A DNA stretch of 48,405 nucleotides from Arthrobacter sp. HMWF013. GTDB lineage: Bacteria; Actinomycetota; Actinomycetes; Actinomycetales; Micrococcaceae. Within the stretch, counting starts at the first letter, position 1. Each line of letters begins with the position of its first letter. Position numbers and translations under genes: made by a program. The stretch covers positions 1 to 48,405 of the forward strand of contig NZ_QAIQ01000122.1 in NCBI RefSeq assembly GCF_003061105.1, given 5' to 3'. Under the pieces are notes generated by a model that was not told the DNA's origin, made no database searches, and saw only the letters and a program-made list of their open reading frames with translations. Shown piece after piece: positions 5,634 to 48,405 of this stretch.

Positions 5634-6350
5634 TTAGGCTGGTTGGGATGCGGCGGCGTCGACGCGAGCACCGGGGCCGAAGGCGAGCTGACCGTTGGTG
5701 CGCAGTGACTCGATGGCATCTGCAGGGGACGGTTTGCCGTATACGGCCGATCCGGCTACGAAGATATTGGCACCGGCCCCCGCGGCCCGAGTGATGGTTT
5801 CCTCCGTGATGCCGCCGTCGACTTGGATAGCCACGTTCACCCCGGAGCCCTCAACGGCTGCGCGCGCGCGCCGGATCTTGGGCAGCATGACGTCCAGGAA
5901 TGCCTGGCCGCCGAAGCCCGGCTCTACCGTCATGATCAACAGCATGTCCAGCTCGGGGAGCATGTCGAGGTAGGGTTCCACCGGTGTGGCCGGGCGCAGT
6001 GCCATGCCCGCTTTGGCCCCGCGTGCGCGAAGTTCCCGAGCAAGCTTGATGGGTGCCTCGGACGCCTCAACGTGAAATGTGACAGAGCTTAGGCCCGCGT
6101 CGGCGTACAGGGGTGCCCAGCGGTCCACATTGGCAATCATCAGGTGCGCGTCCAACGGGACGGGGCTGACCTTGTTCAGTCGTTCCACAACAGGCAGGCC
6201 GATGGTCAGATTGGGTACAAAGTGGTTGTCCATGACATCCACGTGGACGGCATCAGCGTTGCTTATGCGGGAAAGCTCGGCTTCGAGGTTGACGAAGTCG
6301 GCCGAGAGGATGCTGGGGTTGATGCAGCAGTTCAGAAGTGATGCGGACAT
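5634..6350 (-). CDS. rpe: Ribulose-phosphate 3-epimerase
   Basis: A 238-residue TIM-barrel epimerase. Characteristic stretches are NPSILSADF near the N-terminus, [16 protein letters not shown] (metal-binding H and D), [16 protein letters not shown] and QVDGGI near the C-terminal phosphate-binding end, followed by [13 protein letters not shown]. It interconverts xylulose 5-phosphate and ribulose 5-phosphate. GAAAGGCAG lies just before the ATG. It sits between tal and rpiB in one operon. It converts the xylulose 5-phosphate made by transketolase back to the HPS acceptor, so it belongs functionally to the RuMP rearrangement branch. All expected catalytic residues are present. Confidence 0.95.
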
Positions 6351-6384
6351 GATGTCTGCCTTTCGCTAGCAGTCAAAGCTCGGG

Positions 6385-7506
6385 TCAGGGTGCCTTCCGT
6401 GCGCTGGCCAGTGCGCCTTCGACGTCGGCAAGCAGTTCCTTCCAGCTAGCAACAAACTTGTTCAGGCCTTCAGATTCTAGGAGTGCTACCACCTCGTTGT
6501 AGGAAATGCCCAGCGCGCCCAGATCGTTCAGCACGCGGTTGGAATCCTCATACATGCCGGTGATGGTGTCCCCGGTGATGACGCCATGGTCAAAGGTGGC
6601 GTCGAGGGTTTTCTCGGGCATGGTGTTGACGACGTCGGCAGCAACCAGACCGGTCACATATAGTGTGTCGGGGTAGGCCGGGTCCTTGACCCCGGTGGAG
6701 GCCCACAAGGGGCGCTGAGGGAGGGCTCCGGATCTGGCCAGCACTGCCCAGCGTTCCGTGGAGAAGAGCTCCTCGTAGACCTGGTAGGCCAGGCGGGCAT
6801 TGGCAACGCCAGCTTTGCCCTTGAGTGCCTTGGCTTCATCGATGCCGAGGCCGTCGAGGCGTTTATCGATCTCGGAGTCCACGCGGGAGACGAAGAACGA
6901 CGCCACGGAATGGATCGTGGACAAGTCGTGGCCGTTCTCCCTGGCCAGTTCCAGTCCGGACTGGAAGGCGTTGATGACCGCACGGTAGCGGTCCAGGGAG
7001 AAGATCAGGGTCACATTGACGCTAATGCCTTCGCCCAAGGTTGCCGTGATGGCCTCGAGGCCTTCGGGGGTTGCGGGAATTTTGATAAGGACGTTGTCCT
7101 TGTCCACCTTCTTGTAGAGGTTCTTGGCCTCGACGATGGTGCCGGCCGTGTCCCAGGCCAGCCGGGGATCAACTTCGATGGAGACACGGCCGTCAACGCC
7201 GTTGGTTGCGGCGGCGATCGGTGCGAACAGGTCGCAGGCGTCAGCGACGTCGGCCGTGGTGATTTCGAAGATGGTCTCTTCGACGCCGGCGCCCTGGGCG
7301 GCAAGCTGGGCGATCTTAGGGTCGTAGTCCGAGCCGGAGGTGATGGCGGCCTGGAAGATGGACGGGTTGGTGGTCACACCCACCACGTTCTTTTCGTCGA
7401 TGAGCTTCTGCAAGCTGCCGCTGTCGAGACGCTCACGCGAGAGGTCATCGAGCCAGATGGACACACCGGCATTGGATAGCTGGGCGGTTAGGGTTGCGTG
7501 GGCCAT
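6385..7506 (-). CDS. tal: Transaldolase
   Basis: A 373-residue transaldolase of the long actinobacterial type. It opens with [18 protein letters not shown] and [11 protein letters not shown] and carries the Schiff-base lysine in [16 protein letters not shown], followed by [13 protein letters not shown]. Start ATG 7506 is supported by AAGGAAGAAGCC directly upstream; the frame extends 16 residues further without an RBS. It transfers a dihydroxyacetone unit between fructose 6-phosphate and erythrose 4-phosphate or sedoheptulose 7-phosphate. With transketolase it rearranges hexose and triose phosphates into pentose phosphates. It lies 104 nt downstream of tkt and 34 nt upstream of rpe. Its presence points to the transaldolase variant of the RuMP cycle rather than the sedoheptulose-bisphosphatase variant. 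Confidence 0.95.
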
Positions 7507-7610: not shown

Positions 7611-9788
7611 TCAGATGCGGGCAGCGGCTAGGGAGTCCTTGGCGGCTGCGGTAACAGCCTCGGCGGTGATGCCGAACTCCTGGAACAGACGCTTATAGTC
7701 AGCGGAGGCGCCGTAGTGTTCGAGGCTGACGGAACGACCGGCGTCGCCGACGAATTCCTTCCAGCCCAGGGCCAGTCCGGCCTCCACGGAGACGCGGGCC
7801 CTGACGGCGGCTGGCAGCACGGACTCACGGTAGGCCGCGTCCTGCCTGTTGAACCACTCGACGCACGGCATGGAAACGACGCGGGCGCCGATGCCTTCGG
7901 CCTGGAGCGCTTCGCGGGCCTGGACGGCCAGCTGGACCTCGGAGCCGGTAGCGATCAGGATCACGTCGGCCGGAACGGTGGCACCGTCCTTGGCTGCTTC
8001 GGCCAGCACATAGCCGCCCTTTGCGACGCCCGCCGGGGAAGCAAAGGTGTCACCCTGTGCTGCGCCGGTACCGCGGGCGAAAGTGGGCACGTTCTGACGG
8101 GTCAGGACGATACCTGCCGGGTTTTCGTGGTTTTCCAGCATGGTCTTCCACGCGGTGCCCACCTCATTCGCGTCAGCGGGGCGGACTACGTCCAGGCCCA
8201 CGATGGCGCGCAGCGAGGCGAGCTGTTCCACTGGCTGGTGGGTGGGACCGTCCTCGCCCAAGCCAATGGAGTCGTGGGACCAGACGTAGATAGACGGGAC
8301 ACCCATCAGGGCCGAAAGGCGGATGGCCGGGCGCTGGTAGTCACTGAAGATCAAAAACGTACCGGAGAACGCACGGGTCCGTCCGTGCAGAGAGATACCG
8401 TTCACGATGGACGCTGCGGCGTGCTCGCGGATGCCGAAGTGCAGGACCCGGCCGTAGGGGTTGCCCCTCCAGGCATCGGTGGAGCGGGAGACCGGGATGA
8501 AGGACGCCGAGCCTTCGATGGTGGTGTTGTTGGACTCCGCGAGGTCAGCCGAGCCGCCCCAGAGTTCCGGCATGACCGGGCCCAGCGCGTTCAGGACCTT
8601 GCCTGACGCGGCGCGGGTAGAGACATCCTTGCCGGCTTCGAAGACCGGCAGGACTGCATCGAGTCCGGCGGGAAGCTTTTTAGCTTCGATCCGCTCCAAC
8701 AGGGCAGCGCCCTCAGGGTTCGCCGACCGCCATGCATCAAACGAGGAATCCCATTCGCTGCGGGTGGCTGCTCCGCGGTCCAGGACGGCACGGGCGTGGG
8801 CGAGAACCTCCTGGTCCACCTCGAAGGACTTCTCCGGGTCGAAGCCCAGAACCTCCTTCAGGCTCGCCACCTCGTCGGCGCCCAGGGCTGAACCGTGGAT
8901 CTTGCCGGTGTTCTGCTTCTTCGGCGCCGGGTACCCGATGATGGTGCGCAGCGAGATGATGGACGGCTTGGACGTCTCAGCCTTCGCTGCGAGCAGGGCC
9001 GAGTACAGTTCCTGGACGTCTTCGACGTATTCGCCGGTCTCGGTCCAGTCCACGCGCTGGGTGTGCCAGCCATAGGCCTCATAGCGCTTCAGGACATCCT
9101 CGGTGAATGAGATGTCGGTGTCGTCCTCGATGGAGATGTGGTTCTCGTCGTAGACCACTACGAGGTTGCCCAGTTCCTGGTGCCCAGCCAGCGAGGAGGC
9201 CTCGGAGGTCACGCCTTCCTGGATGTCGCCGTCGGAGGCGATGACCCAGATCGTGTGGTCAAACGGGGACGCGCCCTCGGCAGCGTCGGCGTCGAACAGG
9301 CCCCGCATGCGGCGCTGCGAGTAAGCGAAGCCCACCGAGGAGGCCAGGCCCTGGCCCAGCGGACCGGTGGTGATCTCCACACCGGGGGTGTGCTTGTACT
9401 CAGGGTGGCCGGGCGTCAGGGAATCCCAGGTGCGCAGCGACTTGAGGTCGTCCAGCTCCAGACCGTAGCCGGATAGGAACAACTGAATGTACAAGGTCAG
9501 CGACGAATGTCCGGGTGACAGGATGAAGCGGTCACGCCCCAGCCAGTCCGGGTCGCTGGGATCGTGACGCATCAGCTTCTGGAAAAGAAGATAGGCGGCC
9601 GGGGCGAGGCTCATGGCCGTGCCGGGGTGGCCATTGCCGACCTTTTCGACGGCGTCCGCGGCCAAAACCCGGGCTGTGTCCACGGCGCGCTGGTCCTCTG
9701 GCATCCAGTTTAATGTTGCCGATTCAGGAGGTGAAGCTGAATCGGCGGTGCTGAACAAAGTATGGGTCGCATTTGCGGTCGGATTCAC
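7611..9788 (-). CDS. tkt: Transketolase
   Basis: A 725-residue thiamine-diphosphate enzyme with the full transketolase layout. The N-terminal [19 protein letters not shown] and the ThDP/Mg motif [30 protein letters not shown] (in pieces from about residue 180) are present. The middle pyrimidine-binding domain has [19 protein letters not shown] (Glu at about 445), and there is a C-terminal regulatory domain. The start is GTG at 9788, with GAAGGG 8 nt upstream. It is the first gene of tkt-tal-rpe-rpiB. The upstream region (9789-9951) is shared with the divergent LuxR-type regulator and contains a 33-nt element repeated upstream of hpi-hps. It would regenerate pentose phosphates for formaldehyde fixation. 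An additional housekeeping tkt elsewhere in the genome is likely but not visible. Confidence 0.95.
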
Positions 9789-37736: not shown

Positions 37737-38795
37737 ATGACGCACTCTTCCACCGCATTAGACGCGAACCCACAGTCACCGAGCATCAAGCCTCCTCAGG
37801 ACAGTGACCCCCACCGCAACGAGCTTCGCTTCTCCCAATTGCTCCAGGGGAAGCGGCTCCTTTCAGATGGGGTTCCGTTTTGGAAGGGCCATGGAACCGG
37901 AAACGATTTCGTCCTTATCCCAGATCCGGAAGGCGTACTCCACATTGATGGGCCTTCTACAGCTCTCGTCTGCAATAGGCACCAGGGCGTAGGTGCCGAC
38001 GGTCTCATCCGCGCAGTCCGGTCTGAAAACATCCCTGAAGGGCGGCCGTTACTGGCGAACATGCCTGAAGCTCAGTGGTTTATGGACTACAGGAATGCTG
38101 ACGGGAGCATCGCTGAGATGTGTGGCAACGGGGTACGGGCCTTCGTCCATTTCCTCGTTTCCGTAGGGCTCATTGAACTGCCGACCGGGGCAACAACGGC
38201 CGTTGGGACGCGCGCGGGGGTCAAATGGGTTCAGCGACGCGGGCAGAACAGCTATGAGGTGGACATGGGACCATGGCGCCTGTCGTTTCCCGAGCAGATC
38301 GCTGCCACGGGTACAGATGCGGCTGTAGCGCTTAAGGGACAACCTTCTAACCCGGCAATTTCCATCGACATGGGAAATCCACACTCCGTGGTTGTCCTCC
38401 CTGCGTCGACTTCCATCCAGGAACTCGACTTGACGACCGAGCCCGCTGTTGAACCCCGGCCTCCCGCCGGTACAAACGTGGAGTTCGCTACCCTGGCACG
38501 AATGTCGGAGCAGGGTACTGAAGCATCAGTTGTAATGAGGGTTTTTGAACGTTCCGTGGGTGAGACGCAAGCATGTGGTACGGGCGCCTGCGCCGTCGCA
38601 GCCGCCGTCCGGCACTCCGAAGAGCTGCATGACGTCAATGCTTGGACTGTCACCATGCCTGGCGGACCAGTTCAAGTCTCCTTTTGCCCGAAGGTCGAAG
38701 CTGATGGCAGCCAGGATGAACACGTCTTCCTGCGTGGGCCTGCACGAATGGTCGCGAGCGGGACCTTCAGCCATGAATTGTGGGATGAAAACTGA
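37737..38795 (+). CDS. dapF: Diaminopimelate epimerase
   Basis: A 352-residue DapF with both catalytic cysteines: C129 in AEMCGNGVRAF and C280 in TQACGTGACA. Also present are FWKGHGTGNDFVLIPD, NRHQGVGADGLI, MDYRNADGS and IDMGNPHSVV, as in actinobacterial DapF. The N-terminal 45 residues (Ser/Pro-rich, then LRFSQLLQGKRLL) extend beyond the usual length of about 275-300. It interconverts LL-DAP and meso-DAP, giving the substrate of LysA. GAAAGG lies 9 nt before the ATG. Co-transcription with lysA is likely. The pair performs the last two steps from LL-DAP to lysine and could also process DAP from imported cell-wall peptides. Confidence 0.92.
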   Translation: MTHSSTALDANPQSPSIKPPQDSDPHRNELRFSQLLQGKRLLSDGVPFWKGHGTGNDFVLIPDPEGVLHIDGPSTALVCNRHQGVGADGLIRAVRSENIPEGRPLLANMPEAQWFMDYRNADGSIAEMCGNGVRAFVHFLVSVGLIELPTGATTAVGTRAGVKWVQRRGQNSYEVDMGPWRLSFPEQIAATGTDAAVALKGQPSNPAISIDMGNPHSVVVLPASTSIQELDLTTEPAVEPRPPAGTNVEFATLARMSEQGTEASVVMRVFERSVGETQACGTGACAVAAAVRHSEELHDVNAWTVTMPGGPVQVSFCPKVEADGSQDEHVFLRGPARMVASGTFSHELWDEN

Positions 38796-39248
38796 CGCTA
38801 GGGCCTTTGCCTTGGCATCGGCAAGGTTGGCGTTTACTCCTTCTCGAGTGTCCAAAGGGGAACTCACCCCTTGCTGAACCTTTCGAGGCGTGCGGGGGAG
38901 CCGGAGGGCTCGACGTAGTCCTCCAGTCTTTCCGCGGAAGGCAAACCTTGTCGGGATGGAGGACTGGACTGCTATGAAGTATTCGTACCGTGACCTCGGG
39001 GTGTAGCCGGTTCCTCATGCTGAGGCGCCCTTGCTGTCTGGGCCCGCAGGGACCGGCCAGCGGGTACGGATCCGCTATTGCGGGCGCTGAAGGTCAGCTA
39101 CACACGGCGTGTGCTTCGACGTGCTGCCGCCACCGATTTGACTTGGGCGCGCAGCCAAGCACGGCGCACCCCGAACCATCTTCTGCGCGGATGCATAGAA
39201 CATGTTGGTGGGCTGGCAGGGATTTGCTGATTTCAGTGCCCTCCTACC
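38796..39248. other. Convergent intergenic stretch between dapF and rpiR2
   Basis: About 450 nt with no supported gene. A short hairpin AAGGGG-aactca-CCCCTT (38855-38872) could act as a weak terminator for dapF. Confidence 0.4.
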
Positions 39249-40202
39249 CTATTTGTGGCGGGGAGTCACTTCGTTCCGCCCAGTAGGCGCGAAGGCGCTT
39301 TCCGTCACCAAACCCAGCCCTCGGCCGAAGCCAGGATGAGGAACCATGGTGTCAACAAGGGATCCGTAGCGCTCGAACCGACTGCGAGAAGTGGCAGAGG
39401 TGTAGTCGAGCACCCGTGCGGTTAAGGCTTCTACTACGGCCATGGTGGACACATACGACTCAAAGGGCCTGGCAGTCCCCACCGACGCCGGCAGGACTGC
39501 ACTGGCCGCGTCCGCCAAGGGAGATAGCCATTGGTCGGTGAAAAGAATCAGCTTCCCGCCATGCTCGACCACTGCTCTTCCCAGCTTTTCGGTCCGGGCC
39601 TCATAACGGCGAAAATCGAAAGCCACCGCCGTGGTGCGTCTGTCCGCATCGCACAGCGCTGCCACTCGCCGACTGGCAGAATCGTCTACAAACTCCACCC
39701 CAGCACGCAGTTCCTGCAGCATGGCACAAAAGTGCTGTGCTAAGGATGAACTGAACCAACCGCCAAAGATCAGCACTTTCTGCTTGGGATCCACCAGCAG
39801 TTCTGCGGCAGCGTCGATGTCTTCACTTGAGAGGCGGTTTAGAGTTTCAGACAGTGCGGTAGTAAGGGCGTCAGACAAGTCCTGTACATCGGCGGCGCCT
39901 GAGGCGCCCGAGGCCTTCGGGAAGAGCTCGACTGGCGTCGTAACGCGGGCGATGACTTCGTCCCTCACTGCCTCCTGAAAGCCCATATAGGTGGCGAAGC
40001 CCAGATGGTTAACAAAGCGGATCACCGTCGGACCGCTGACCCCAGCCTGGCGCGCAAGCTTGGTAGATGTTTCAAGACCAATCGTGGCGGGTCCCCCGAG
40101 GAGGACCCGTGCGATCTTTCGTTCCGCAGTTGTCATGTCGGATAGCCGACGCCGGATGTTCTCGAACACAGGGACACGCCCATTGAGAAGGCTCGCTTCC
40201 AT
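39249..40202 (-). CDS. RpiR/MurR-family transcriptional regulator, copy 2
   Basis: A 317-residue paralogue of the regulator at 34824-35732. The HTH region (FENIRRRLSDMTTAERKIARVLL and VSGPTVIRFVNHLGFATY) is nearly the same, and the SIS domain keeps YGG/FGGWFSSSLAQH, FRRYEARTEKLGRAVVEHGGKLILFTDQWLSPLADAASAVLPASVG and RPFESY. It has about 15 extra residues at the C-terminus. ATG 40202 is preceded by AGGGAAGG in the minus strand. The TCATTCA-N23-TGAATGA dyad lies 26 nt upstream, the same geometry as for copy 1. It may act as homo- or hetero-oligomer with copy 1. The effector is unknown; a phosphosugar or PG-derived molecule is plausible. Confidence 0.92.
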   Translation of the reverse strand: MEASLLNGRVPVFENIRRRLSDMTTAERKIARVLLGGPATIGLETSTKLARQAGVSGPTVIRFVNHLGFATYMGFQEAVRDEVIARVTTPVELFPKASGASGAADVQDLSDALTTALSETLNRLSSEDIDAAAELLVDPKQKVLIFGGWFSSSLAQHFCAMLQELRAGVEFVDDSASRRVAALCDADRRTTAVAFDFRRYEARTEKLGRAVVEHGGKLILFTDQWLSPLADAASAVLPASVGTARPFESYVSTMAVVEALTARVLDYTSATSRSRFERYGSLVDTMVPHPGFGRGLGLVTESAFAPTGRNEVTPRHK

Positions 40203-40227
40203 CCGTGTAAACCTTCCCTAATTGACA

Positions 40228-40274
40228 TCATTCAGTTCTGGTGTGTTGCACCACATATGAATGACATTGTACTT
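40228..40274 (-). promoter_or_regulatory. RpiR-type operator upstream of rpiR copy 2
   Basis: TCATTCA (40228-40234), N23, TGAATGA (40258-40264), perfect inverted halves. The right side continues as TGAATGACATTGTACTT (40258-40274), the regulon core, here pointing away from rpiR2. Confidence 0.65.
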
Positions 40275-40291
40275 CAGGGGCTGGCTATATG

Positions 40292-40347
40292 GGAGGCCGT
40301 TCTGCTGCGATCCCGGATCGTTCCGCCATCACACCAGAACGGCCTCC
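40292..40347 (-). terminator. Hairpin terminator after the APC permease gene
   Basis: GGAGGCCGTTCTG (40292-40304) and its exact complement (40335-40347) are separated by a 30-nt loop. It lies about 58 nt after the permease stop (minus strand). Confidence 0.65.
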
Positions 40348-40404
40348 ATGAGCCTATGAGCCTAGGTCACTGATATCCGGTGTTCCCGCTTTATCAGAGG
40401 CGGA

Positions 40405-41814
40405 TTACACCGATTCCTTGTCCGTGCCCTGCGCGGCGGTTTCAGCGAGGTGCGGAACTGGCTTGTTCAGGGCCTTGCGGACGAGCAGGATGATCAAGCC
40501 GATGAGGAGCCACGCGCCACCGACAATCTTTGCGGTCTCTCCAGTTGAGACCAGAAGAACAACGGCGATCAGGGCGCCCAGGGCAGGAACCAGAATATGC
40601 GTGATGAGGCGCCCGGATTTGCGCTGGACTGCGAAGTAACCGATGACGGCAATGTTGACCAGAACGAATCCCACGAGGGCACCCACATTGATCGTGGTCG
40701 ACAAGATCTCCAGCCCGTCACCCTGCAGCGAGGCCGTTACTGCGATGACGAGGGACAGCCCGCCCAGGATCGCAACTGACACAATGGGGGTGCCACTACG
40801 TCGGCCAACCTTTGCCAGGAATGGTGGCAGGGTGTGTTCTCTGGCCATCGCGAACAAGAGGCGGCTGGCTGCAGCCTGCCCCACCATCGCACAGAAGGCT
40901 GACCCGAGTGCCTTGACGATGGCGAACACGGTAGCCAGCCATGGGGCGACTGAAGTGCGGATTGTGTCATAGAAAGCCGTGCCCTGCAGGTCAGGGTTAG
41001 CGGCCACCTCTGCGGGCGAGAAGGGGGCCAAAAGGGCCATAACGTAAGAGACTGCGACCAACAGCAGGCCTGCGAGGATCAGGCAGGTGATGGTGGCCTT
41101 GCCAACAAGGCGAGGATCCCCAGAGTTTTCCTCGGCGAAGGAAGCAATGCCGTCGAAACCGAGGAAGGAAAAGACTGCAATGGATGCTGCTGCGGCCAGC
41201 ACGACCAGGGTGAGCTGGCCATCCCCTGCAAGAGGCATAATCAAGGATTGAGCGGGGCCTCGGTTGATAAGGACGACCACGCCGAAGATCATGACGAGAC
41301 CAAGAAGAGCGAACTCGATGTAGAGCACAACTCGACCAACCCAGGCGGCGAACTTGACGCCCTGCAGGTTGCAGAGCGTGGTCAGTATGACTGCCACGGC
41401 AGTGAAGAGCCAAGCAGGTACTGACGGGACGGCCGAGTGGAGGGCAAGGCCGGCAAACAGGTACGCGATAGATGGAATAAAAACGTAATCCAAGAGCATC
41501 ATCCAGCCGCCGATAAATCCGGAGCGTGGTCCGATCCCGGCGTTTGCATAGGCAAATACAGACCCTGCAGTCGGGACCGCCCTGGACATCTGTGCGTAGG
41601 AGATTGCCGTGAGAGAGACCGCGGCGGCTGCAATGATGTAAACGAGGGCGAGAGCGCCATTGCTGCTGGCGTACAAGGTGCCGAAGATTCCGGCGATACC
41701 TGTTGGAGTGATGAACAGCAGTCCGTACACGACCAGGTCCCGGAATGTGATTGACCTACGCAGTGTGCCCTGTGTTGGGAGCTGATGTTGTTGGCTGCTT
41801 GTGACAGTTGTCAT
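40405..41814 (-). CDS. APC-superfamily amino acid permease
   Basis: A 469-residue membrane protein with about 12 hydrophobic segments. The N-terminal RRSITFRDLVVYGLLFITPTGIAGIFG, the SRAVPTAGSVFAYANAGIGPRSGFIGGW signature and LGFDGIASFAEENSGDPRLVGKATI are characteristic of amino acid/polyamine-organocation (APC) transporters. ATG 41814 has AAGGA upstream; the frame extends 38 codons further without an RBS. It would import an amino acid by proton symport. The promoter about 165 nt upstream carries the shared operator, so its substrate is probably related to the regulon effector, perhaps lysine, DAP or threonine-like amino acids (inference). The neighbour to the right is threonine aldolase in a separate unit. 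Confidence 0.88.
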   Translation of the reverse strand: MTTVTSSQQHQLPTQGTLRRSITFRDLVVYGLLFITPTGIAGIFGTLYASSNGALALVYIIAAAAVSLTAISYAQMSRAVPTAGSVFAYANAGIGPRSGFIGGWMMLLDYVFIPSIAYLFAGLALHSAVPSVPAWLFTAVAVILTTLCNLQGVKFAAWVGRVVLYIEFALLGLVMIFGVVVLINRGPAQSLIMPLAGDGQLTLVVLAAAASIAVFSFLGFDGIASFAEENSGDPRLVGKATITCLILAGLLLVAVSYVMALLAPFSPAEVAANPDLQGTAFYDTIRTSVAPWLATVFAIVKALGSAFCAMVGQAAASRLLFAMAREHTLPPFLAKVGRRSGTPIVSVAILGGLSLVIAVTASLQGDGLEILSTTINVGALVGFVLVNIAVIGYFAVQRKSGRLITHILVPALGALIAVVLLVSTGETAKIVGGAWLLIGLIILLVRKALNKPVPHLAETAAQGTDKESV

Positions 41815-41980
41815 TGAAAGATCCTTGAAATGCTCCGAAAGAGCTCGTTGGAAGGGGGCATGCAGGGCGCTGGTGCCAGGAGCCACAGTCCCCAGGATGG
41901 CTGATAGGAGAATGCGAATATCCAGCATGCTGCCAAGGGGTGACGTGGAGTTCGGTGGTTCTGCTCAACACCGTCCGACT

Positions 41981-42028
41981 CAGTACATCATCGTACAAAG
42001 AGCCGCGTCAAAGTGAGTTCATGAATGG
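41981..42028 (-). promoter_or_regulatory. Promoter with RpiR-type operator for the APC permease
   Basis: Minus strand: -35 TTGACG (complement of 42006-42011), 18-nt spacer, -10 TGTACT (complement of 41982-41987). The core TGTACGATGATGTACTG matches the site of the amino acid ABC operon at 14 of 17 positions. The distal half is TGAATGG on the plus strand (42022-42028), 24 nt away. Confidence 0.55.
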
Positions 42029-42095
42029 AATGAACCATGACGTTGAGGGCGTCGAGCTGCGTGAGTGCCATCTCCTCAAAACCTTGGAACGGACG

Positions 42096-42129
42096 CTGCG
42101 ACGGCGCGCGGAGGAGCGCGCCGTCGCAG
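42096..42129 (-). terminator. Hairpin terminator after the threonine aldolase operon
   Basis: CTGCGACGGCGCGC (42096-42109) and its exact complement (42116-42129) enclose a 6-nt loop, 33 nt downstream of the ltaE stop on the minus strand. Confidence 0.8.
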
Positions 42130-42161
42130 TTCAGGGTCTCGCAGCCAGCGAACTCGTTCTG

Positions 42162-43295
42162 CTAGTTGCCGGCTGCATCCTCCCGGCCCGGCTTTGACGT
42201 GGGAGTTGAGGCTACGGCCGCCTTAACGGCCGCGAGAAGGGATTCCACGTCGTTTTCGGTAGTGTCCCATGAGCACATCCAGCGAACTTCACCGCGTGCC
42301 TGGTCCCAGTCATAAAAACGAAAAGACTCACGGACTTTTTCTGCCACCCCGGGTGGCAGGATGGCAAAGACCCCGTTCGACTCTGTGGCCTGCGTGATCC
42401 TGACCTCGTCCACAGCTGAAACTCCGGCGCGTAAGCGTTGGGCCATGTCATTGGCGTGGCTGGCTGAACGTAGCCACAAGTCACCTGACAGCAAGGCAAT
42501 CAGCTGGGCCGAGACGAACCGCATCTTGGAGGCCAATTGCATATTCATCTTTCGCAGGTAGTTCATGCCGGGGTCAGTTTGTGAATCCAGCCAAACCACC
42601 GCCTCGCCGAACAGCAGCCCGTTCTTGGTCCCCCCGAAGGACAGGACATCAACACCCACATCTGTGGTGAATGAGCGCAAGGGCAGCCTGAGGTGGGCTG
42701 CCGCATTCGCCAGCCGCGCCCCGTCCATGTGAAGTTTCATTCCCCGGGCATGGACGTGCTCAGCAATCCGTTGAATCTCTTCAGGGCTGTAGCAGGTGCC
42801 AAGCTCCGTCGTCTGGGTAATCGATACAACCAGTGGCTGCGCCCGGTGCTCATCACCCCATCCCCATGCCTCGGCGTCAATCAGCTCCGGCGTGAGTTTG
42901 CCGTCGGCAGTCGGGACCGGAAGAAGCTTTATGCCTGCGATCCGCTCCGGGGCACCATTCTCGTCGGTATTGATGTGCGCGGTTGAGGCGCAAACGACAG
43001 CGCCCCAGCGCGGGAGCAGCGCCTGAAGGGCAAGGACATTAGCACCCGTGCCGTTAAACACCGGGTATGCGGTTGCCCCCGCGCCGAAATGGCCCTGCAC
43101 GACTTGCTGAAGACGCCCTGTATAGGCGTCCTCGCCGTATGCTGTGACATGGCCTTCGTTAGCCGCCTCAACCGCCGCGATTATTTCGGCATGGGCGCCA
43201 GCGTAATTATCAGAGGCGAAGCCCCGGTATCCCGGATCGTGGAGGCGTCCTGCCACTGCTAAGGAGCCTGGGCTGGATATAAAACTGAGGCTCAT
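42162..43295 (-). CDS. Low-specificity L-threonine aldolase family
   Basis: A 377-residue fold-I PLP enzyme. FASDNYAGAHAEIIAAVEAANEGHVTAYGED is the usual N-terminal region, HINTDENGAPE the loop near PLP, MKLHMDGARLANAAAHL contains the PLP-binding Asp, and VLSFGGTKNGLLFGEAVV contains the Schiff-base lysine. It cleaves beta-hydroxy amino acids such as threonine or allo-threonine to glycine and an aldehyde; with serine-like substrates this would give formaldehyde. It is the last gene of the operon with DUF6421 and SDR genes. Its start overlaps the SDR stop by 4 nt. The substrate in this operon is not known. Confidence 0.88.
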   Translation of the reverse strand: MSLSFISSPGSLAVAGRLHDPGYRGFASDNYAGAHAEIIAAVEAANEGHVTAYGEDAYTGRLQQVVQGHFGAGATAYPVFNGTGANVLALQALLPRWGAVVCASTAHINTDENGAPERIAGIKLLPVPTADGKLTPELIDAEAWGWGDEHRAQPLVVSITQTTELGTCYSPEEIQRIAEHVHARGMKLHMDGARLANAAAHLRLPLRSFTTDVGVDVLSFGGTKNGLLFGEAVVWLDSQTDPGMNYLRKMNMQLASKMRFVSAQLIALLSGDLWLRSASHANDMAQRLRAGVSAVDEVRITQATESNGVFAILPPGVAEKVRESFRFYDWDQARGEVRWMCSWDTTENDVESLLAAVKAAVASTPTSKPGREDAAGN

Positions 43296-44050
43296 ACCGG
43301 CGCACCGACCAACCGGCCAGAAGTAAGAGATAGCCGCTGACCGTTGATTTCCCCTGCCTCCAAATCAAAAATCCTCTCCACCGCCTCGGCAAGAACAGAA
43401 ACGTCCGTGAAGCCGGGGAACTTTCGCTCGGGCTGGGCTGCCCGCATCCGGTCGTCCACCAAGGCCTTGACCACGAGGACAAGCGCTGCCGAACGTTGAG
43501 TGCTGAGCGAAGTGTCGGCGCCTACCTGCCCCTGCCGGAATCCATCGGCGACGGCAAGAGTCCATGCTTCGGAGGCAGATTTCACTGCTGCATAGGCAGC
43601 CCCATCAGCAGTCGGCTTTGAAGCCGACTCGGCTGAAACGATGACCAAACGCCCGACGTCCGAGGCTGCCAGGTCATCATAAAAGGCCCGGGAGGTGTTT
43701 CGAAGCGTCGTGAGGACACTGGTGTTCAGGAAGTCCCAGTCTTCATCCGTCTGCCCTGCGATGCCGCCGCCACCTCGCCAGCCGCCCACGAGGTGGATGA
43801 TACCATCCACGGGGCCAAGGTCAGCCCGTACTGATCTTGCCAGCTCCTGAACGGATTGCTGGTCGGCGAGATTACAGACATAGCCTGTGACGCTGTCGTG
43901 CTTTCCGGCCAGCTCGTGGACACGGTCCTCAAGAATGTCTACAGCGGCTATGGATGCGCCGGCCGCCGAGAGGGTGCGGACCACTGCAGCGCCGGCTGCG
44001 CTGGTTGAGCCAGCGACGACAATGTTACGCCCCGCAAGGGCCCCGCTCAC
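43292..44050 (-). CDS. SDR-family oxidoreductase
   Basis: A 252-residue short-chain dehydrogenase. The cofactor-binding region is NIVVAGSTSAAGAAVVRTLSAAGASIAAVDI, where the classical TGxxxGxG is changed to GSTSAAGAA. The active site shows LVIVSAESASKPTADGAAYAAVKSASEAW, where the catalytic Tyr and Lys are YAAVK and the Ser is in VSAES. GGWRGGGGIAGQTDEDWDF is a glycine-rich loop. It overlaps the DUF6421 gene (ATGA) and the threonine aldolase gene by 4 nt each, so all three act together. It may reduce or oxidise the carbonyl or hydroxy compound handled by the aldolase. Confidence 0.87.
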   Translation of the reverse strand: MSGALAGRNIVVAGSTSAAGAAVVRTLSAAGASIAAVDILEDRVHELAGKHDSVTGYVCNLADQQSVQELARSVRADLGPVDGIIHLVGGWRGGGGIAGQTDEDWDFLNTSVLTTLRNTSRAFYDDLAASDVGRLVIVSAESASKPTADGAAYAAVKSASEAWTLAVADGFRQGQVGADTSLSTQRSAALVLVVKALVDDRMRAAQPERKFPGFTDVSVLAEAVERIFDLEAGEINGQRLSLTSGRLVGAPV

Positions 44051-45441
44051 GCGTCGACCTTGCTCTCAGTGTTCACTGGGCTGGTGCCCGTGATGCCGGC
44101 GGTGGATTCGATGACAGGCCGCATCTTCTTCTCGAGGGCTTCGTAGAACATGGACAGGGGGAATTCGTCATCGTGAACCTGATCGGTCAGGCCCTTGGGT
44201 GGCCCGTCCAAAGGCAGGGCCTCGGGGCCCTTGGCCCATACCGATGAGGGGTTTGGGGTGAGGGTTTCAGAGACGAGCTCATAGGCGGCGAGCCAGTGTG
44301 CGGTCTTGGGGCGGTCGATGGAACGCCAGTAGAGTTCCTCGATACGGATTCCCAGTTCGACGACGACGCCGGCGACGTCCTTCCAGTCGATGCTGAGCTT
44401 GCCGTCGGTCCAGTGCAGGACGCGGTGCTGGTGCATCCAGGCGAAGAGCAGCTGGCCACCCACTGCGTCATAGTTGCGGACCCGGTTCCCGGTAATGGCG
44501 AAACGGAAGATCCGGTCGAAGATGACGGCGTACTGGACCAACTTGGCGTGCTTGCGCGCATCTTCGGAGGCGTTCTCGTCCTTTTCGATGATGACGGATT
44601 CACGGAATGCGGTCAGGTCACAGCGGAGTTCCTCGAGGGAGTACAGGAAGAAGGGCATCCGCTGCTTGATCATGAATGGGTCAAACGGCAGGTCCCCGCG
44701 CATGTGGGTCCGGTCGTGGATCAGGTCCCACATCACGAAGGTTTTCTCCGTCAGGTGCTGGTCCTCAAGCAGTTCTGCGGCGTCCGCCGGCAGCTCAAGG
44801 CCCGTGATGTCGGCAGCGGCTTTCAGGACCCGGCGGAAGCGCGCCGCTTCCCGGTCCGCGAATATGCCGCCCCAGGTGAAGGTCGGGGTGGTCCTGACCG
44901 CAACGCTCTCAGGGAACAGGACAGCGGAGTTGGTGTCATAGCCGGGCGTGAAGTCCACGAAGCTGATCGGCACGAACAGCTTGTTCGAGTAACGACCCGC
45001 TTCAAGATCCGAGACGAAATCAGGCCAAATAACTTCAAGGAGCACGGCCTCAACCAAACGGCTGGTGCTGCCGTTCTGCGTGTACATGGGGAAAACCACC
45101 AGATGGGGCAGGCCATCGATACGAGCGTGCTCAGGGTGGAAGGCTACCAATGAGTCCAGGAAGTCCGGGACACCGAAACCCTCGGACTCCCAACGACCAA
45201 AGTCCCTCACCAGCAGTTCCAGGTACTCGCTGTCGTGGGGCAGGTGCTGTCGCAGCTCATGGATAGAAGCAACGATCGTGTTGACGCTGGACCGCGCTCC
45301 GTCGTGATGGGCGGCGTCAGGAACCGAACCGTCTTGTACCTGAACCTTCTGCAATTCAATGACAGCTGCTTTGAGGGCAGTCCAGGCCGGGAGGATCTTC
45401 AAGTCCTCGGCTTTGGTCAGTTCATTCACCGTGATCGACAT
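44047..45441 (-). CDS. DUF6421-family protein
   Basis: A 464-residue cytoplasmic protein of unknown function. ATG 45441 has AAAGGAAATGG upstream; the frame extends 11 codons further. It contains LVVFPMYTQNGSTSRLVEAVLLEVIWPDFV, FVDFTPGYDTNSAVLFPESVAVR, FTWGGIFADREAARFRRVLKAAADI, MWDLIHDRTHMRGDLPFDPFMIKQRMPFFLYSLEELRCDL and LLFAWMHQHRVLHWTDGKLSIDW. The HDRTHMRGD and WMHQHRVLHW stretches have His/Asp/Arg combinations suggestive of a metal or catalytic centre. I recognise this as the protein that often precedes an SDR and a threonine aldolase in actinobacteria. There are no membrane segments. It is first in a tightly overlapping three-gene operon. Confidence 0.8.
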   Translation of the reverse strand: MSITVNELTKAEDLKILPAWTALKAAVIELQKVQVQDGSVPDAAHHDGARSSVNTIVASIHELRQHLPHDSEYLELLVRDFGRWESEGFGVPDFLDSLVAFHPEHARIDGLPHLVVFPMYTQNGSTSRLVEAVLLEVIWPDFVSDLEAGRYSNKLFVPISFVDFTPGYDTNSAVLFPESVAVRTTPTFTWGGIFADREAARFRRVLKAAADITGLELPADAAELLEDQHLTEKTFVMWDLIHDRTHMRGDLPFDPFMIKQRMPFFLYSLEELRCDLTAFRESVIIEKDENASEDARKHAKLVQYAVIFDRIFRFAITGNRVRNYDAVGGQLLFAWMHQHRVLHWTDGKLSIDWKDVAGVVVELGIRIEELYWRSIDRPKTAHWLAAYELVSETLTPNPSSVWAKGPEALPLDGPPKGLTDQVHDDEFPLSMFYEALEKKMRPVIESTAGITGTSPVNTESKVDA

Positions 45442-45583
45442 GCCATTTCCTTTCATGGAGGGGTATGACATCAAGGTAGCAATGGTTAAGAACTGCTAAC
45501 AGAGTCACGCCACATGAGTAAGTAAGTCTGTTGCTACGCGTGCCTCGCGGGCCCTTATGGCAGAGATAACTTTAGGGTCGAAC

Positions 45584-45630
45584 CTATTCAGAAGCAATGG
45601 TTATGAGCTACCCTGAATGACGTCATACTG
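45584..45630 (+). promoter_or_regulatory. Promoter with RpiR-type operator for pdxS
   Basis: The core TGAATGACGTCATACTG (45614-45630) contains the near-palindrome GAATGAC-GTCATAC. -10 CATACT is at 45624-45629, with a weak -35 TTATGA at 45601-45606 (17-nt spacer). The distal half is CTATTCA (45584-45590), exactly 23 nt upstream. It lies between the divergent DUF6421 operon and pdxS and could affect both. Confidence 0.6.
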
Positions 45631-45757
45631 TTTTCCTGCGCACACGATTCTGCTTTGCGAAGCGACAACAAAGGTCGAACCACGCACTGTGCCGCCAAAT
45701 GCGGCAACCCCCGTTTGGCCAGTTCCAAAACTGCCCTGATTCCAAAGGACCTCCTAG

Positions 45758-46657
45758 ATGACCGCTACACCCATCAATGAAACGGGCAGCAGCCGTGTTA
45801 AGCGGGGCATGGCTGAGATGCTCAAGGGCGGCGTTATCATGGACGTCGTCAACGTCGAGCAGGCCCGCATCGCCGAAGATGCCGGTGCTGTTGCTGTGAT
45901 GGCCCTGGAACGCGTTCCGGCCGATATCCGTGCCCAGGGCGGCGTGTCCCGCATGTCCGATCCGGACATGATCGACCAGATCATCGACGCCGTGTCCATC
46001 CCCGTGATGGCCAAGGCCCGCATCGGCCACTTCGTCGAGGCCCAGGTCCTGCAGTCCCTGGGCGTGGACTACATTGACGAGTCCGAGGTCCTGACCCCGG
46101 CCGACTACGTCAACCACATCGACAAGTGGAACTTCAAGGTTCCGTTCGTCTGCGGTGCCACCAACCTGGGTGAGGCGCTGCGCCGCATTAACGAGGGCGC
46201 GGCGATGATCCGCTCCAAGGGCGAGGCCGGCACCGGCGACGTCTCCAACGCCACCGGGCACATGCGCCAGATCCGTTCCGAGATCGCCAAGCTCGCCGCC
46301 CTGCCCGAGGACGAGCTCTACGTCGCGGCCAAGGAACTGCAGGCCCCGTATGAACTGGTCAAGGAAGTCGCCGCTGCCGGCAAGCTTCCGGTGGTGCTGT
46401 TTACCGCCGGCGGCATTGCCACCCCGGCTGACGCTGCCATGATGATGCAGCTCGGCGCGGACGGCGTGTTCGTGGGTTCGGGCATCTTCAAGTCCGGCAA
46501 CCCGGCCCAGCGCGCCGCCGCCGTCGTGAAGGCCACCACCTTCTTCGATGACCCTGATGTCATCGCCAAGGCCTCCCGCGGCCTGGGCGAAGCGATGGTG
46601 GGCATCAACGTCGACGAGATCCCCCAGCCCCACCGGCTCGCCCAACGCGGCTGGTAA
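45758..46657 (+). CDS. pdxS: Pyridoxal 5'-phosphate synthase subunit PdxS
   Basis: A 299-residue PdxS/SNZ protein. [84 protein letters not shown] and [20 protein letters not shown] are the conserved barrel with both active lysines, and [31 protein letters not shown] is the phosphate site. It makes PLP from ribose/ribulose 5-phosphate, glyceraldehyde 3-phosphate and ammonia. AAAGGA lies upstream of the ATG. The glutaminase partner pdxT is not downstream, where it usually is. The promoter carries the shared operator. Substrates are made by the tkt-tal-rpiB block, and users (LysA, threonine aldolase) are next door. Confidence 0.96.
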
Positions 46658-46662
46658 CCACA

Positions 46663-46995
46663 GTGATGACGCACCTGGAGATCCGTAATCTCCTCTCCCC
46701 CGTTTCCTATGCCAAGGGCAGCAAGCTTCCAGCCCGGGAGTGGGGGCAGCTGGAAGAAGGTCACTATGTCATGGTCCAGCGCGAAGGCGAGCCGATCCTT
46801 ACAGGGGAAGTTGACGCCCGAACCAAGGACGGCTCCGTTTTCTGGGTTTGGCTTGACGGAGGCCGCGGACGCATAGCGGTCTACGCCGATGAGGGCACCC
46901 GCGTTTGGTTGCCTAAAGGTTATCGCCTGGAAGCTGAAGAAGAAGTTGCAGGAGCCCATTCGCAAACAGAGGCACCGGGGCAGCCGCCGGCTTGA
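46663..46995 (+). CDS. Small uncharacterised protein downstream of pdxS
   Basis: A 110-residue ORF starting GTG 46663 (an ATG follows directly at 46666), 5 nt after the pdxS stop, hence probably translated by coupling. The central part EGHYVMVQREGEPILTGEVDARTKDGSVFWVWLDGGRGRIAVYADEGTRVWLP looks like a small beta-barrel (SH3-like) domain. The C-terminus is acidic, Pro/Gln-rich and probably disordered. It occupies the place where pdxT is usually found but has no similarity to a glutaminase (no GGES or catalytic Cys motif). Function unknown; the composition makes a real gene likely. Confidence 0.6.
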   Translation: MMTHLEIRNLLSPVSYAKGSKLPAREWGQLEEGHYVMVQREGEPILTGEVDARTKDGSVFWVWLDGGRGRIAVYADEGTRVWLPKGYRLEAEEEVAGAHSQTEAPGQPPA

Positions 46996-47053
46996 TTTCT
47001 GGTGCAGGAACCGGCAACAAGAAGATCAATATGAGGGGCCTAGGAAGGAACGA

Positions 47054-47485
47054 ATGGCACCCCTCACCAGACAGAGAGGCCAGCACGCTGGCCAGGAGTG
47101 CACCTACCCCATTCCCACCCTTGGGCCCGCACAGCACCACCCAGAGGGAAGCACTGCGGTGGTCCTGGGCATGATGCATCCGAGCTCTGTCCCCCAGCCT
47201 TCGACGGACGCGCCAAATGATCTGCCGAGTCTCCCATCAAGCGTAGTTGCCGGCCTGCAGGGCGCAGAGGTTATCTTTTACGACCCGATCTCATCAGGGG
47301 GAGAAGACGAACTCACCCGGCAGCACCTTCCAAGAACTAGGAGGACCGCTACCCAGGCACGCAGTCACAGGCCCGCATCCAGGAACAAACTAAGGACTCG
47401 CGAGGAAGCCATAGAGACTGTCGTCCAAGAACTGCGACGGCTGTCGCAGGAAGGACGGACAGGAAAACCCGGGGAACCCTGTTAA
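47054..47485 (+). CDS. Hypothetical protein (143 aa)
   Basis: An ATG preceded by a strong GGAAGGA, open to TAA near 47485. The first half is Pro/Thr/Ser/His-rich without recognisable motif. The second half includes VVAGLQGAEVIFYDPISSGGEDELTRQHLPRT and a C-terminal helix TREEAIETVVQELRRLSQEG that could be a coiled coil. No family recognised. Coding potential is uncertain because of the composition of the first half. Confidence 0.35.
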   Translation: MAPLTRQRGQHAGQECTYPIPTLGPAQHHPEGSTAVVLGMMHPSSVPQPSTDAPNDLPSLPSSVVAGLQGAEVIFYDPISSGGEDELTRQHLPRTRRTATQARSHRPASRNKLRTREEAIETVVQELRRLSQEGRTGKPGEPC

Positions 47486-47765
47486 ATGGATTGGTGGGCA
47501 GTTATTCATCTCTGTTCTGGTAACGCTGTTCGTCATCATGGATCCGTCTGGAACCCCTGCCTCTGTTTATATCGTTCACGGCCGATATGACTGTTAAGAC
47601 TCGGCGCTGCAGGCCCTGGCCGTAGCGGCTGGCGTTCATAGCCTCCGCCGTGTTTGGCCAAAACATTCTTAATTACAGGCACATGAGCCTGGCCGCCTTG
47701 CATGGGCCATAAGCCCGCAGTGGGGCTGACGCCGCGATCATGAGCACTGTGAATAGGGGGAAGCC
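47486..47765. other. Gene-free stretch
   Basis: About 280 nt without a supported gene; a few short inverted words but no clear terminator. Confidence 0.35.
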
Positions 47766-47933
47766 TTGAAAGAAGTCAGCGCTGCACTAGTCAAAACCAG
47801 CATTCACAGAACTGACTGCAGTTGCCCGGGTAATAAGAGGCGAAGCACCATCGAAGGGTGGTCTGTAGGAATTTCTGGGACCGTTGCCATACTCGGCGCC
47901 ATCTATGCATCGTGGCAGTATCACGGATGGTGA
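47766..47933 (+). CDS. Candidate small membrane protein (55 aa)
   Basis: A TTG-initiated frame with GGGGGAAG directly upstream, ending TGA 47931-47933. The product has a basic, Cys-containing N-terminal half (TDCSCPGNKRRS) and one hydrophobic segment, WSVGISGTVAILGAIYASW, near the C-terminus, consistent with a single membrane span. No family recognised. It lies 150 nt upstream of the serine recombinase. It may be a small accessory protein of the mobile element or a chance frame. Confidence 0.4.
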   Translation: MKEVSAALVKTSIHRTDCSCPGNKRRSTIEGWSVGISGTVAILGAIYASWQYHGW

Positions 47934-48085
47934 ACCTGAAAACAGCTTCGTCAGGGGCCGCCATAGTAGGCACTGCTCTGCCGATCTGAGGCACACCCCA
48001 ATCTGACAAATTCGCGGCTGGTCTTGACTTCTTTCTGAGAGAAGCCTAGAACTCAACCTGACGGGTTCAAGGTTGGAGGCGATCA

Positions 48086-48405
48086 GTGGCCGGACAGCGG
48101 ATCGGGTACGTGCGCGTGAGCACCCTGGATCAGAACGAGAAACGCCAGCTCGAAGGCCAGGTTCTGGACCGGGTCTTCACGGACAAGGCCTCCGGCAGGG
48201 ACACCGCGAGGCCAGAGCTTACGGAGTTGCTGCGGTTTGCCCGGGACGGGGACACCGTGGTGGTGCACAGCATGGACCGGCTGGCCCGTAACCTCGATGA
48301 CCTGCGCGCTCTGGTCCAAAACCTCACGCGCAAAGGTGTGCGGGTGGAGTTCGTTAAAGAGAGCCTGGTCTTCACCGGCGAGGACTCCCCCATGGCCAAC
48401 CTCAT
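48086..48405 (+). CDS. Serine recombinase (resolvase/invertase family), truncated at window end
   Basis: A GTG start with TTGGAGG 6-7 nt upstream opens a frame running to the end of the window (about 106 residues). The N-terminal catalytic domain is clear: RIGYVRVSTLDQNEKRQLEG with the nucleophilic Ser, DKASGRDTARPELTELLRFARDGDTVVVHSMDRLARNLDDLRALV with the conserved R-x-x-R-N, and GVRVEFVKESLVF followed by the start of the MANL helix. It belongs to the small resolvase/invertase group of Tn3-like elements and plasmids. The DNA-binding HTH lies beyond the window. It marks a transposon, plasmid resolution module or invertible segment at the right edge. Confidence 0.88.
   Translation, partial: MAGQRIGYVRVSTLDQNEKRQLEGQVLDRVFTDKASGRDTARPELTELLRFARDGDTVVVHSMDRLARNLDDLRALVQNLTRKGVRVEFVKESLVFTGEDSPMANL

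Follow-up and report, generated by a model that had tools for sequence, protein, structure and literature searches.

PolE, an enzyme of the polyoxin pathway in Streptomyces cacaoi that is described as a member of the protein family DUF6421, is an L-isoleucine desaturase requiring Fe(II), O2 and tetrahydrobiopterin (BH4), and quinonoid dihydropteridine reductase (QDPR) raises its activity 2-3 fold (PMC12614342). The same report puts the number of PolE homologues at ~10,000, gives HE/DxxHx(21-23)E as a family-wide motif and states that many family members colocalize with amino-acid-modifying enzymes. A hydroxylation coupled to an aldolase is described for carnitine synthesis, where beta-hydroxylation is followed by cleavage to glycine and an aldehyde, and threonine aldolases are reported to have this as a side activity (PMC8085414). 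Here we analyze a window, the whole stretch of 48,405 nucleotides of contig NZ_QAIQ01000122.1 from Arthrobacter sp. HMWF013, which carries overlapping genes for a DUF6421 protein, a short-chain dehydrogenase/reductase (SDR) and an L-threonine-aldolase-like enzyme dependent on pyridoxal 5'-phosphate (PLP). We propose, with a probability of roughly 40%, that this operon encodes an Fe/pterin amino-acid oxygenase, its own pterin-recycling SDR and an aldolase cleaving the beta-hydroxy product. Our literature search returned one paper naming the family DUF6421 (PMC12614342), in whose main text the word "aldolase" is absent, and none of the titles and abstract openings among the matches listed dealt with a DUF6421-SDR-aldolase operon.

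The DUF6421 protein and its likeness to PolE

The three proteins match the Pfam families DUF6421 (PF19985, 792.9 bits against a gathering score of 25, covering profile positions 2-437 of 437), adh_short (PF00106, 74.8 bits) and Beta_elim_lyase (PF01212, 164.8 bits). An initial annotation, made from the DNA alone, had described the first protein as lacking an assigned function, a statement now out of date because PolE of the same family is a characterized Fe/pterin oxidase (PMC12614342). It had also singled out two stretches, HDRTHMRGD and WMHQHRVLHW, as possible parts of a catalytic site. The former contains the metal-binding motif known from the literature: H242, D243, R244, H246, G249 and D250, and beyond this stretch also E270, are invariant among 28 aligned DUF6421 sequences, in the profile alignment Glu270 stands opposite the first Glu of the PolE sequence LEELR, and HE/DxxHx(21-23)E was present in 37 of the 38 loci scanned, the one without it (L038) having a partial family match. 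The latter did not carry over to PolE; H337 and W344 are invariant in the same 28 sequences, and by hand reading neither is kept in the PolE rows.

Structure prediction, suggested as a check alongside that annotation, yielded a PolE fold. The AlphaFold model (predicted local distance difference test (pLDDT) 85.8) superimposed on SnPolE (9j2e) in VIA with Z 29.8, 368 of 370 aligned and a root-mean-square deviation of 3.7, and a sequence comparison with PolE chains in the PDB gave a best E-value of 6.1e-12. F140 and Y280 of SnPolE, both mutated in PDB entries, map to the invariant residues F176 and Y324 in a hand-counted profile alignment. The HDRTH-x23-E motif and the PolE fold therefore make the Fe/pterin class likely for DUF6421, and we consider it probable that the window protein is an Fe/pterin amino-acid oxidase. 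Three points weigh against this assignment: SnPolE Y157 aligns with Ile193 of the window protein, identity to PolE is about 17-20%, and PolE is the one family member whose enzyme assay was considered here (PMC12614342). The next structural family was dipeptidyl peptidase III (DPP III; Z 17.0, 364 residues aligned), a second-best match under which DUF6421 would be a Zn peptidase and the operon would serve peptide turnover. We hold this to be very improbable, given the far higher score of PolE, the published report that the DPP III motif HExxGH is not conserved in DUF6421 (PMC12614342), and the presence of HDRTH in the window protein.

Gene order and the loop of the SDR

We compiled 80 named loci, the top 80 among 570 relatives and thus mostly close ones, together with 20 chosen regions and the window. 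Counts of gene order refer to the 96 of these in which DUF6421 is followed by 6 kb or more of sequence; these 96 are mostly related rather than independent and may include the same species in both sets. In this gene-neighborhood survey, likewise suggested at the outset, the SDR gene immediately followed DUF6421 in 94 of 96 loci; in the remaining two (L132 and L135) it came after one mechanically called open reading frame (ORF) without a Pfam match. In 82 of the 96 loci the 6 kb past DUF6421 held the SDR and then the aldolase, the latter at a distance above 1 kb in 10 of the 82, and 12 of the 94 loci with the DUF6421-SDR pair had no aldolase in that interval. The 4-nt overlaps that the initial annotation had noted at both junctions of the window are exact (GTGA at 44047-44050, ATGA at 43292-43295), and a start codon permitting such an overlap at the DUF6421/SDR junction occurs in 66 of 94 loci. 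The full order was seen in Micrococcaceae and Microbacteriaceae, in further genomes of their class, and in genomes from other classes within the phylum. The initial annotation had read the three genes as one functional unit unless their order proved private to this genome; because the order recurs beyond it, that reading holds up, and the three genes are one real, conserved unit whose order goes beyond chance.

Of 61 genomes sampled from the genus, the source genome among them, 60 carry DUF6421, and the sole miss is a genome 68% complete. The family was likewise detected in each of the 11 genomes sampled from genus g8, and a phylum-wide sample of 396 genomes contained it in 22. This distribution bears on a biosynthetic interpretation of the operon, in which DUF6421 would desaturate like PolE and the aldolase would run forward, joining glycine and an aldehyde into a non-protein amino acid. 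PolE itself is indeed a desaturase and not a hydroxylase, and routes to unusual amino acids have been proposed by the authors who described it (PMC12614342). However, near-universal presence in the genus and in g8 resembles core metabolism more than a natural-product cluster, an aldolase would be superfluous for a desaturation product, and the scanned neighbors held no condensation or carrier-protein domain, although an AMP-binding enzyme is encoded upstream at one locus (L130). We regard such a module as improbable.

The SDR (AlphaFold pLDDT 95.3) is marked by a GGWxGG loop. Residues G89, G90, W91 and G93, together with Tyr153 and Lys157, are invariant among 27 aligned sequences; among 134 operon SDR rows, 131 have GGW.G (118 of 121 once identical rows are removed) and all 134 have YxxxK. 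None of the 29 other SDR loci of the source genome (30 loci returned for 42 adh_short matches, minus one operon SDR) has GGW at the loop position, 21 carrying other residues and eight being gapped there. A DNA pattern scan for GGWxG in this genome was uninformative, with 145 matches against 135 for the reversed pattern. The loop aligns with those of 8b5t, 8b5u and 1ooe as VDxxxxxxGGWxGG, and in QDPR the loop Trp lies at the pterin site. When a 43-residue loop profile was searched against the PDB, only seven sequences appeared at E<=10; ranks 3-5 were two quinonoid dihydropteridine reductases (E 0.14 each) and one dihydropteridine reductase (0.33), and carbonyl reductases (0.71) made up the last two. 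An 83-residue SDR segment reached QDPR 8b5t at E 5.1e-4, 59th among the best 60 of 225 matches. We give a pterin reductase slightly less than even odds as the identity of the operon SDR; its nearly invariant GGWxGG loop is a new observation of this analysis.

Several observations weigh against this identification. The 14 rows of the loop profile contain GGW by construction, and the loop-only searches were not blind, having been made after GGWxGG had been recognized by recall. Their first two ranks, 4h15 (E 0.093) and 3tqh (0.12), are not QDPR, and the E-values of the dihydropteridine reductases themselves are weak (0.14-0.33). The best 60 of 695 PDB matches of the full-length SDR profile were mostly FabG-like and included no QDPR, and the best 50 rows from Foldseek and VIA were other SDRs, again with no QDPR. 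Thirteen of 374 genomes without DUF6421 also have a loop match, four of them at E<=1e-15; only two of these 13 have an aromatic amino acid hydroxylase, and ten ORFs beside DUF6421-less loop SDRs included no pterin family by Pfam.

These observations leave room for a pathway dehydrogenase, an arrangement in which DUF6421 would still be an Fe/pterin oxidase, the SDR would act on the aldehyde of the aldolase or on a beta-hydroxy amino acid, and a general reductase encoded elsewhere would recycle the pterin. A plain FabG-type SDR is kept as a rival because whole-chain similarity is blind to the substrate loop. The full-length profile is indeed nearest to FabG-like and to sugar and hydroxyacyl dehydrogenases, and SDRs with the GGW loop occur without DUF6421, mostly without an aromatic amino acid hydroxylase. 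The catalytic Ser, which we take to stand 13 positions before Tyr in FabG (a position placed by alignments), remains in 81 of the 121 operon SDRs, the others having Ala (39, the window included) or Gln (1). QDPR is not known to have this Ser, and its absence was tried as a sign of QDPR and dropped; a crude control in the source genome has Ser at that position in 20 of 30 SDR loci, and because this share is alike, loss of the residue does not discriminate. Against a dehydrogenase stand the near-invariant GGWxGG loop, which matches dihydropteridine reductases, and the 12 loci that keep the SDR without a nearby aldolase, the pattern to be expected of an SDR working directly for DUF6421. We judge the dehydrogenase rather unlikely. 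The initial annotation had taken the aldolase and SDR to indicate a beta-hydroxy amino acid or its aldehyde; the link to amino acids remains, whereas the SDR need not act on either compound, its loop making pterin recycling a candidate role.

Across the 396 genomes, the loop profile matched in 34, namely 21 of the 22 with DUF6421 and the 13 of 374 without it. The 21 matches lay at E<=1.2e-18, and in the exception (G397) DUF6421 stands at a contig end. This co-occurrence arises partly by construction, because 10 of the 14 profile rows come from nine of those 21 genomes. Pterin-4a-carbinolamine dehydratase (PCD, PF01329) was found in 20 of 22 DUF6421 genomes versus 191 of 374 others, a trend that agrees with a pterin link. 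To be set against that link, the comparison is confounded by phylogeny, and PCD was not found in the fragmented source genome or in G316. Aromatic amino acid hydroxylase (PF00351) occurs in 11 of 396 genomes: two of the 22 with DUF6421, two of the 13 that are loop-positive and DUF6421-negative, and seven of the remaining 361. As an independent test of pterin recycling it was set aside as weak (2/13 vs 7/361, both positives from one family, f33).

Some DUF6421-less genomes deserve separate mention. ORFs with LVGGWxGG loops occur at five loci (L206, L207, L208, L210 and L211), and the scanned neighbors of the loop SDRs at L206, L208 and L210 were unrelated to pterin. At L201 (genome G234), a GGW-loop SDR at 5695-6546 lies ~2 kb from a PCD match at ~8132-8356, which the scanned ORF beside the SDR missed. 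At least one of the weak loop matches, that at L209 (G085), may be no SDR, as judged by eye.

The aldolase and a proposed pathway

The best PDB match of the window aldolase is the L-threonine aldolase 5vye (E 1.7e-79), and a profile of operon aldolases matches 5vye (E 6.8e-105) and 1v72 (E 6e-93) over most of its length. K224, D191, G192 and R194 are invariant among 16 operon aldolases, and the lysine motif (GGTKNG/GATKNG) and DGAR are kept in the displayed alignments with 5vye, 7yvr and 9l9g; Lys224 is presumably the catalytic residue. The protein falls under the NCBIfam cut-offs for both GntG (NF041359, 72.8 vs 230 bits) and LtaE (NF007825, 32.7 vs 312 bits). That it acts on the product of DUF6421 is, in our estimate, an even chance.

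In the pathway that we propose, DUF6421 would hold Fe(II) by two His and one Glu (HDRTH-x23-E270) and, with O2 and a tetrahydropterin, would oxidize an L-amino acid in its free form, the simplest site being the beta carbon. The SDR would return the oxidized pterin to its tetrahydro form in the manner of quinonoid dihydropteridine reductase, using NAD(P)H, Tyr153/Lys157 and a GGWxGG pterin loop, and the dehydratase step would fall to PCD encoded elsewhere, where present. The aldolase could then split the beta-hydroxy amino acid into glycine and an aldehyde, comparable to the hydroxylase-aldolase step of carnitine synthesis. From the gene order, families, folds, conserved residues and loop similarity observed here, we infer Fe/pterin use by the HDxxH branch, the substrate of the SDR, beta-hydroxylation and the direction of the aldolase. 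The oxygenase class is well supported and the SDR role moderately so; the aldolase step is reached by inference. A bolder extension, on which we are slightly more doubtful than on the function proposed for this operon, is a widespread, unrecognized actinobacterial pathway that combines HDxxH Fe/pterin beta-hydroxylation of a common amino acid, a GGWxGG pterin-recycling SDR and an aldolase releasing glycine and an aldehyde.

If this pathway exists, Arthrobacter-like and related actinobacteria would oxidize non-aromatic amino acids with pterin as part of their core metabolism, and biocatalysis with pterin-dependent enzymes would gain, in the GGWxGG SDR, an enzyme that regenerates the cofactor at the expense of NAD(P)H. 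The operon suggests a likely recycling partner and a likely next step for a family encoded in nearly every sampled genome of the genus.

Locus surroundings and known systems

Coordinates of the operon, its proposed functional residues and the flanking elements are given in Table 1. The region of the inverted repeat 3' of the aldolase has a folding energy of -45.1 kcal/mol (z -2.7), and the repeat may mark the transcript end of the operon; it was not called by the terminator scan. Promoter and terminator scans of the window were near chance, and an Rfam scan of 38000-48405 gave nothing at gathering score.

Table 1. Operon genes, proposed functional residues and flanking elements in the window.
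Feature	Position	Strand	Remarks
DUF6421 gene	44047-45441	-	464 aa; ATG start six bases after AAAGGA; longer mechanical start, TTG at 45474
HDRTH codons, residues 242-246	44704-44718	-	Proposed metal-binding motif; fits published motif
Glu270 codon	44632-44634	-	Third proposed metal ligand (HDRTH-x23-E); invariant in 28 sequences
SDR gene	43292-44050	-	252 aa; GTG start
GGWRGG codons, residues 89-94	43769-43786	-	Signature loop after fourth strand; G89, G90, W91, G93 invariant
L-threonine-aldolase-like PLP enzyme gene	42162-43295	-	377 aa; ATG start
Lys224 codon in GGTKNG	42624-42626	-	Presumed PLP Schiff-base lysine; invariant in 16 operon aldolases
Perfect 14-bp inverted repeat	42096-42129	-	Directly past aldolase stop; without T tract
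Amino-acid permease gene	40405-41811	-	Beyond inverted repeat; internal start chosen by analyst
RpiR-type regulator gene	39249-40202	-	Beyond inverted repeat; same strand as operon
pdxS (PLP synthase subunit)	45758-46657	+	Divergent; start ~317 nt from DUF6421 start

No line of evidence fixes the substrate of DUF6421, a further point against the proposed pathway. A gene of one cluster is divergent from DUF6421 in nine loci (eight of the 10-row clade containing the window copy, and L085). Three members scanned by Pfam are amino-acid permeases, and eight of the nine match the permease of the window, the member at L041 being a short piece. The window and L127 fall outside this cluster, the permease of the window lying downstream instead. 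These permease neighbors would fit an imported amino-acid substrate. Other neighbors within the genus (SelR/msrB, DUF3000, an HRDC exonuclease, a thiolase and a FadB-like protein) gave no substrate hint, and pdxS was dropped as a functional clue, since the window and its copy L002 were the sole compared loci with it beside the operon.

The source genome holds three DUF6421 operon copies, on contigs C128 (L002), C67 (L120) and C674 (L119). In a tree of 49 DUF6421 proteins, the window copy falls in the 10-row Micrococcaceae clade (support 95/90), an accessory clade to which the C67 copy belongs as well, and the C674 copy groups with L121 of G001, a one-copy genome. The three operons could reflect a strain mixture, because the assembly comprises 731 contigs with 4.4% contamination. 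An Arthrobacter-type operon with 74% identity also appears in a record titled Vibrio cholerae strain 35D (WNZI01000002.1, L110), probably a mislabelled or contaminated assembly. At four loci from other classes of the phylum (L033-L036), DUF6421 makes up the C-terminal portion of a longer ORF (700-762 aa), and the N-terminal portion of this ORF matches DUF4350 and IFT52_GIFT, with a weak ThuA match in L033; these long ORFs are possible natural fusions. Single frames joining DUF6421 and the SDR (e.g. L043) were rejected as fusions, since inspection revealed overlapping open frames.

Among known systems, PolE (PDB 9j2e, and the related SnPolE/SmPolE) is closest to the window DUF6421 protein in fold (Z 29.8), in the His-x3-His-x(22-23)-Glu arrangement and at the F and Y positions; the window protein differs in its low identity (about 17-20%), HDxxH in place of HExxH, a longer chain, Ile for Y157 and the SDR and aldolase context. 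The operon SDR shares the VDxxxxxxGGWxGG loop within an SDR with quinonoid dihydropteridine reductase (8b5t, 8b5u) and 1ooe, and has YxxxK in every operon row (134/134). Unlike dihydropteridine reductases, it is nearer the FabG type over the whole chain, often keeps Ser and is the bacterial operon partner of a PolE-type oxidase. The operon aldolase resembles the L-threonine aldolase 5vye and the aldolase of 1v72 over most of its length, with GGTKNG and DGAR kept in 5vye, but differs from this set in falling under the GntG and LtaE cut-offs of NCBIfam. Trimethyllysine hydroxylase is an enzyme of the 2-oxoglutarate/Fe type. With HTML aldolase it follows the same logic as that proposed here, beta-hydroxylation and then a retro-aldol split that yields glycine and an aldehyde (PMC8085414); this eukaryotic pair, with its other type of hydroxylase, is alike in logic only. 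The same division between a pterin hydroxylase and recycling enzymes is found in an engineered set of phenylalanine hydroxylase, PCD and dihydropteridine reductase (PMC10354952), although phenylalanine hydroxylase belongs to another Pfam family, PF00351, which is present in only two of the 22 DUF6421 genomes.

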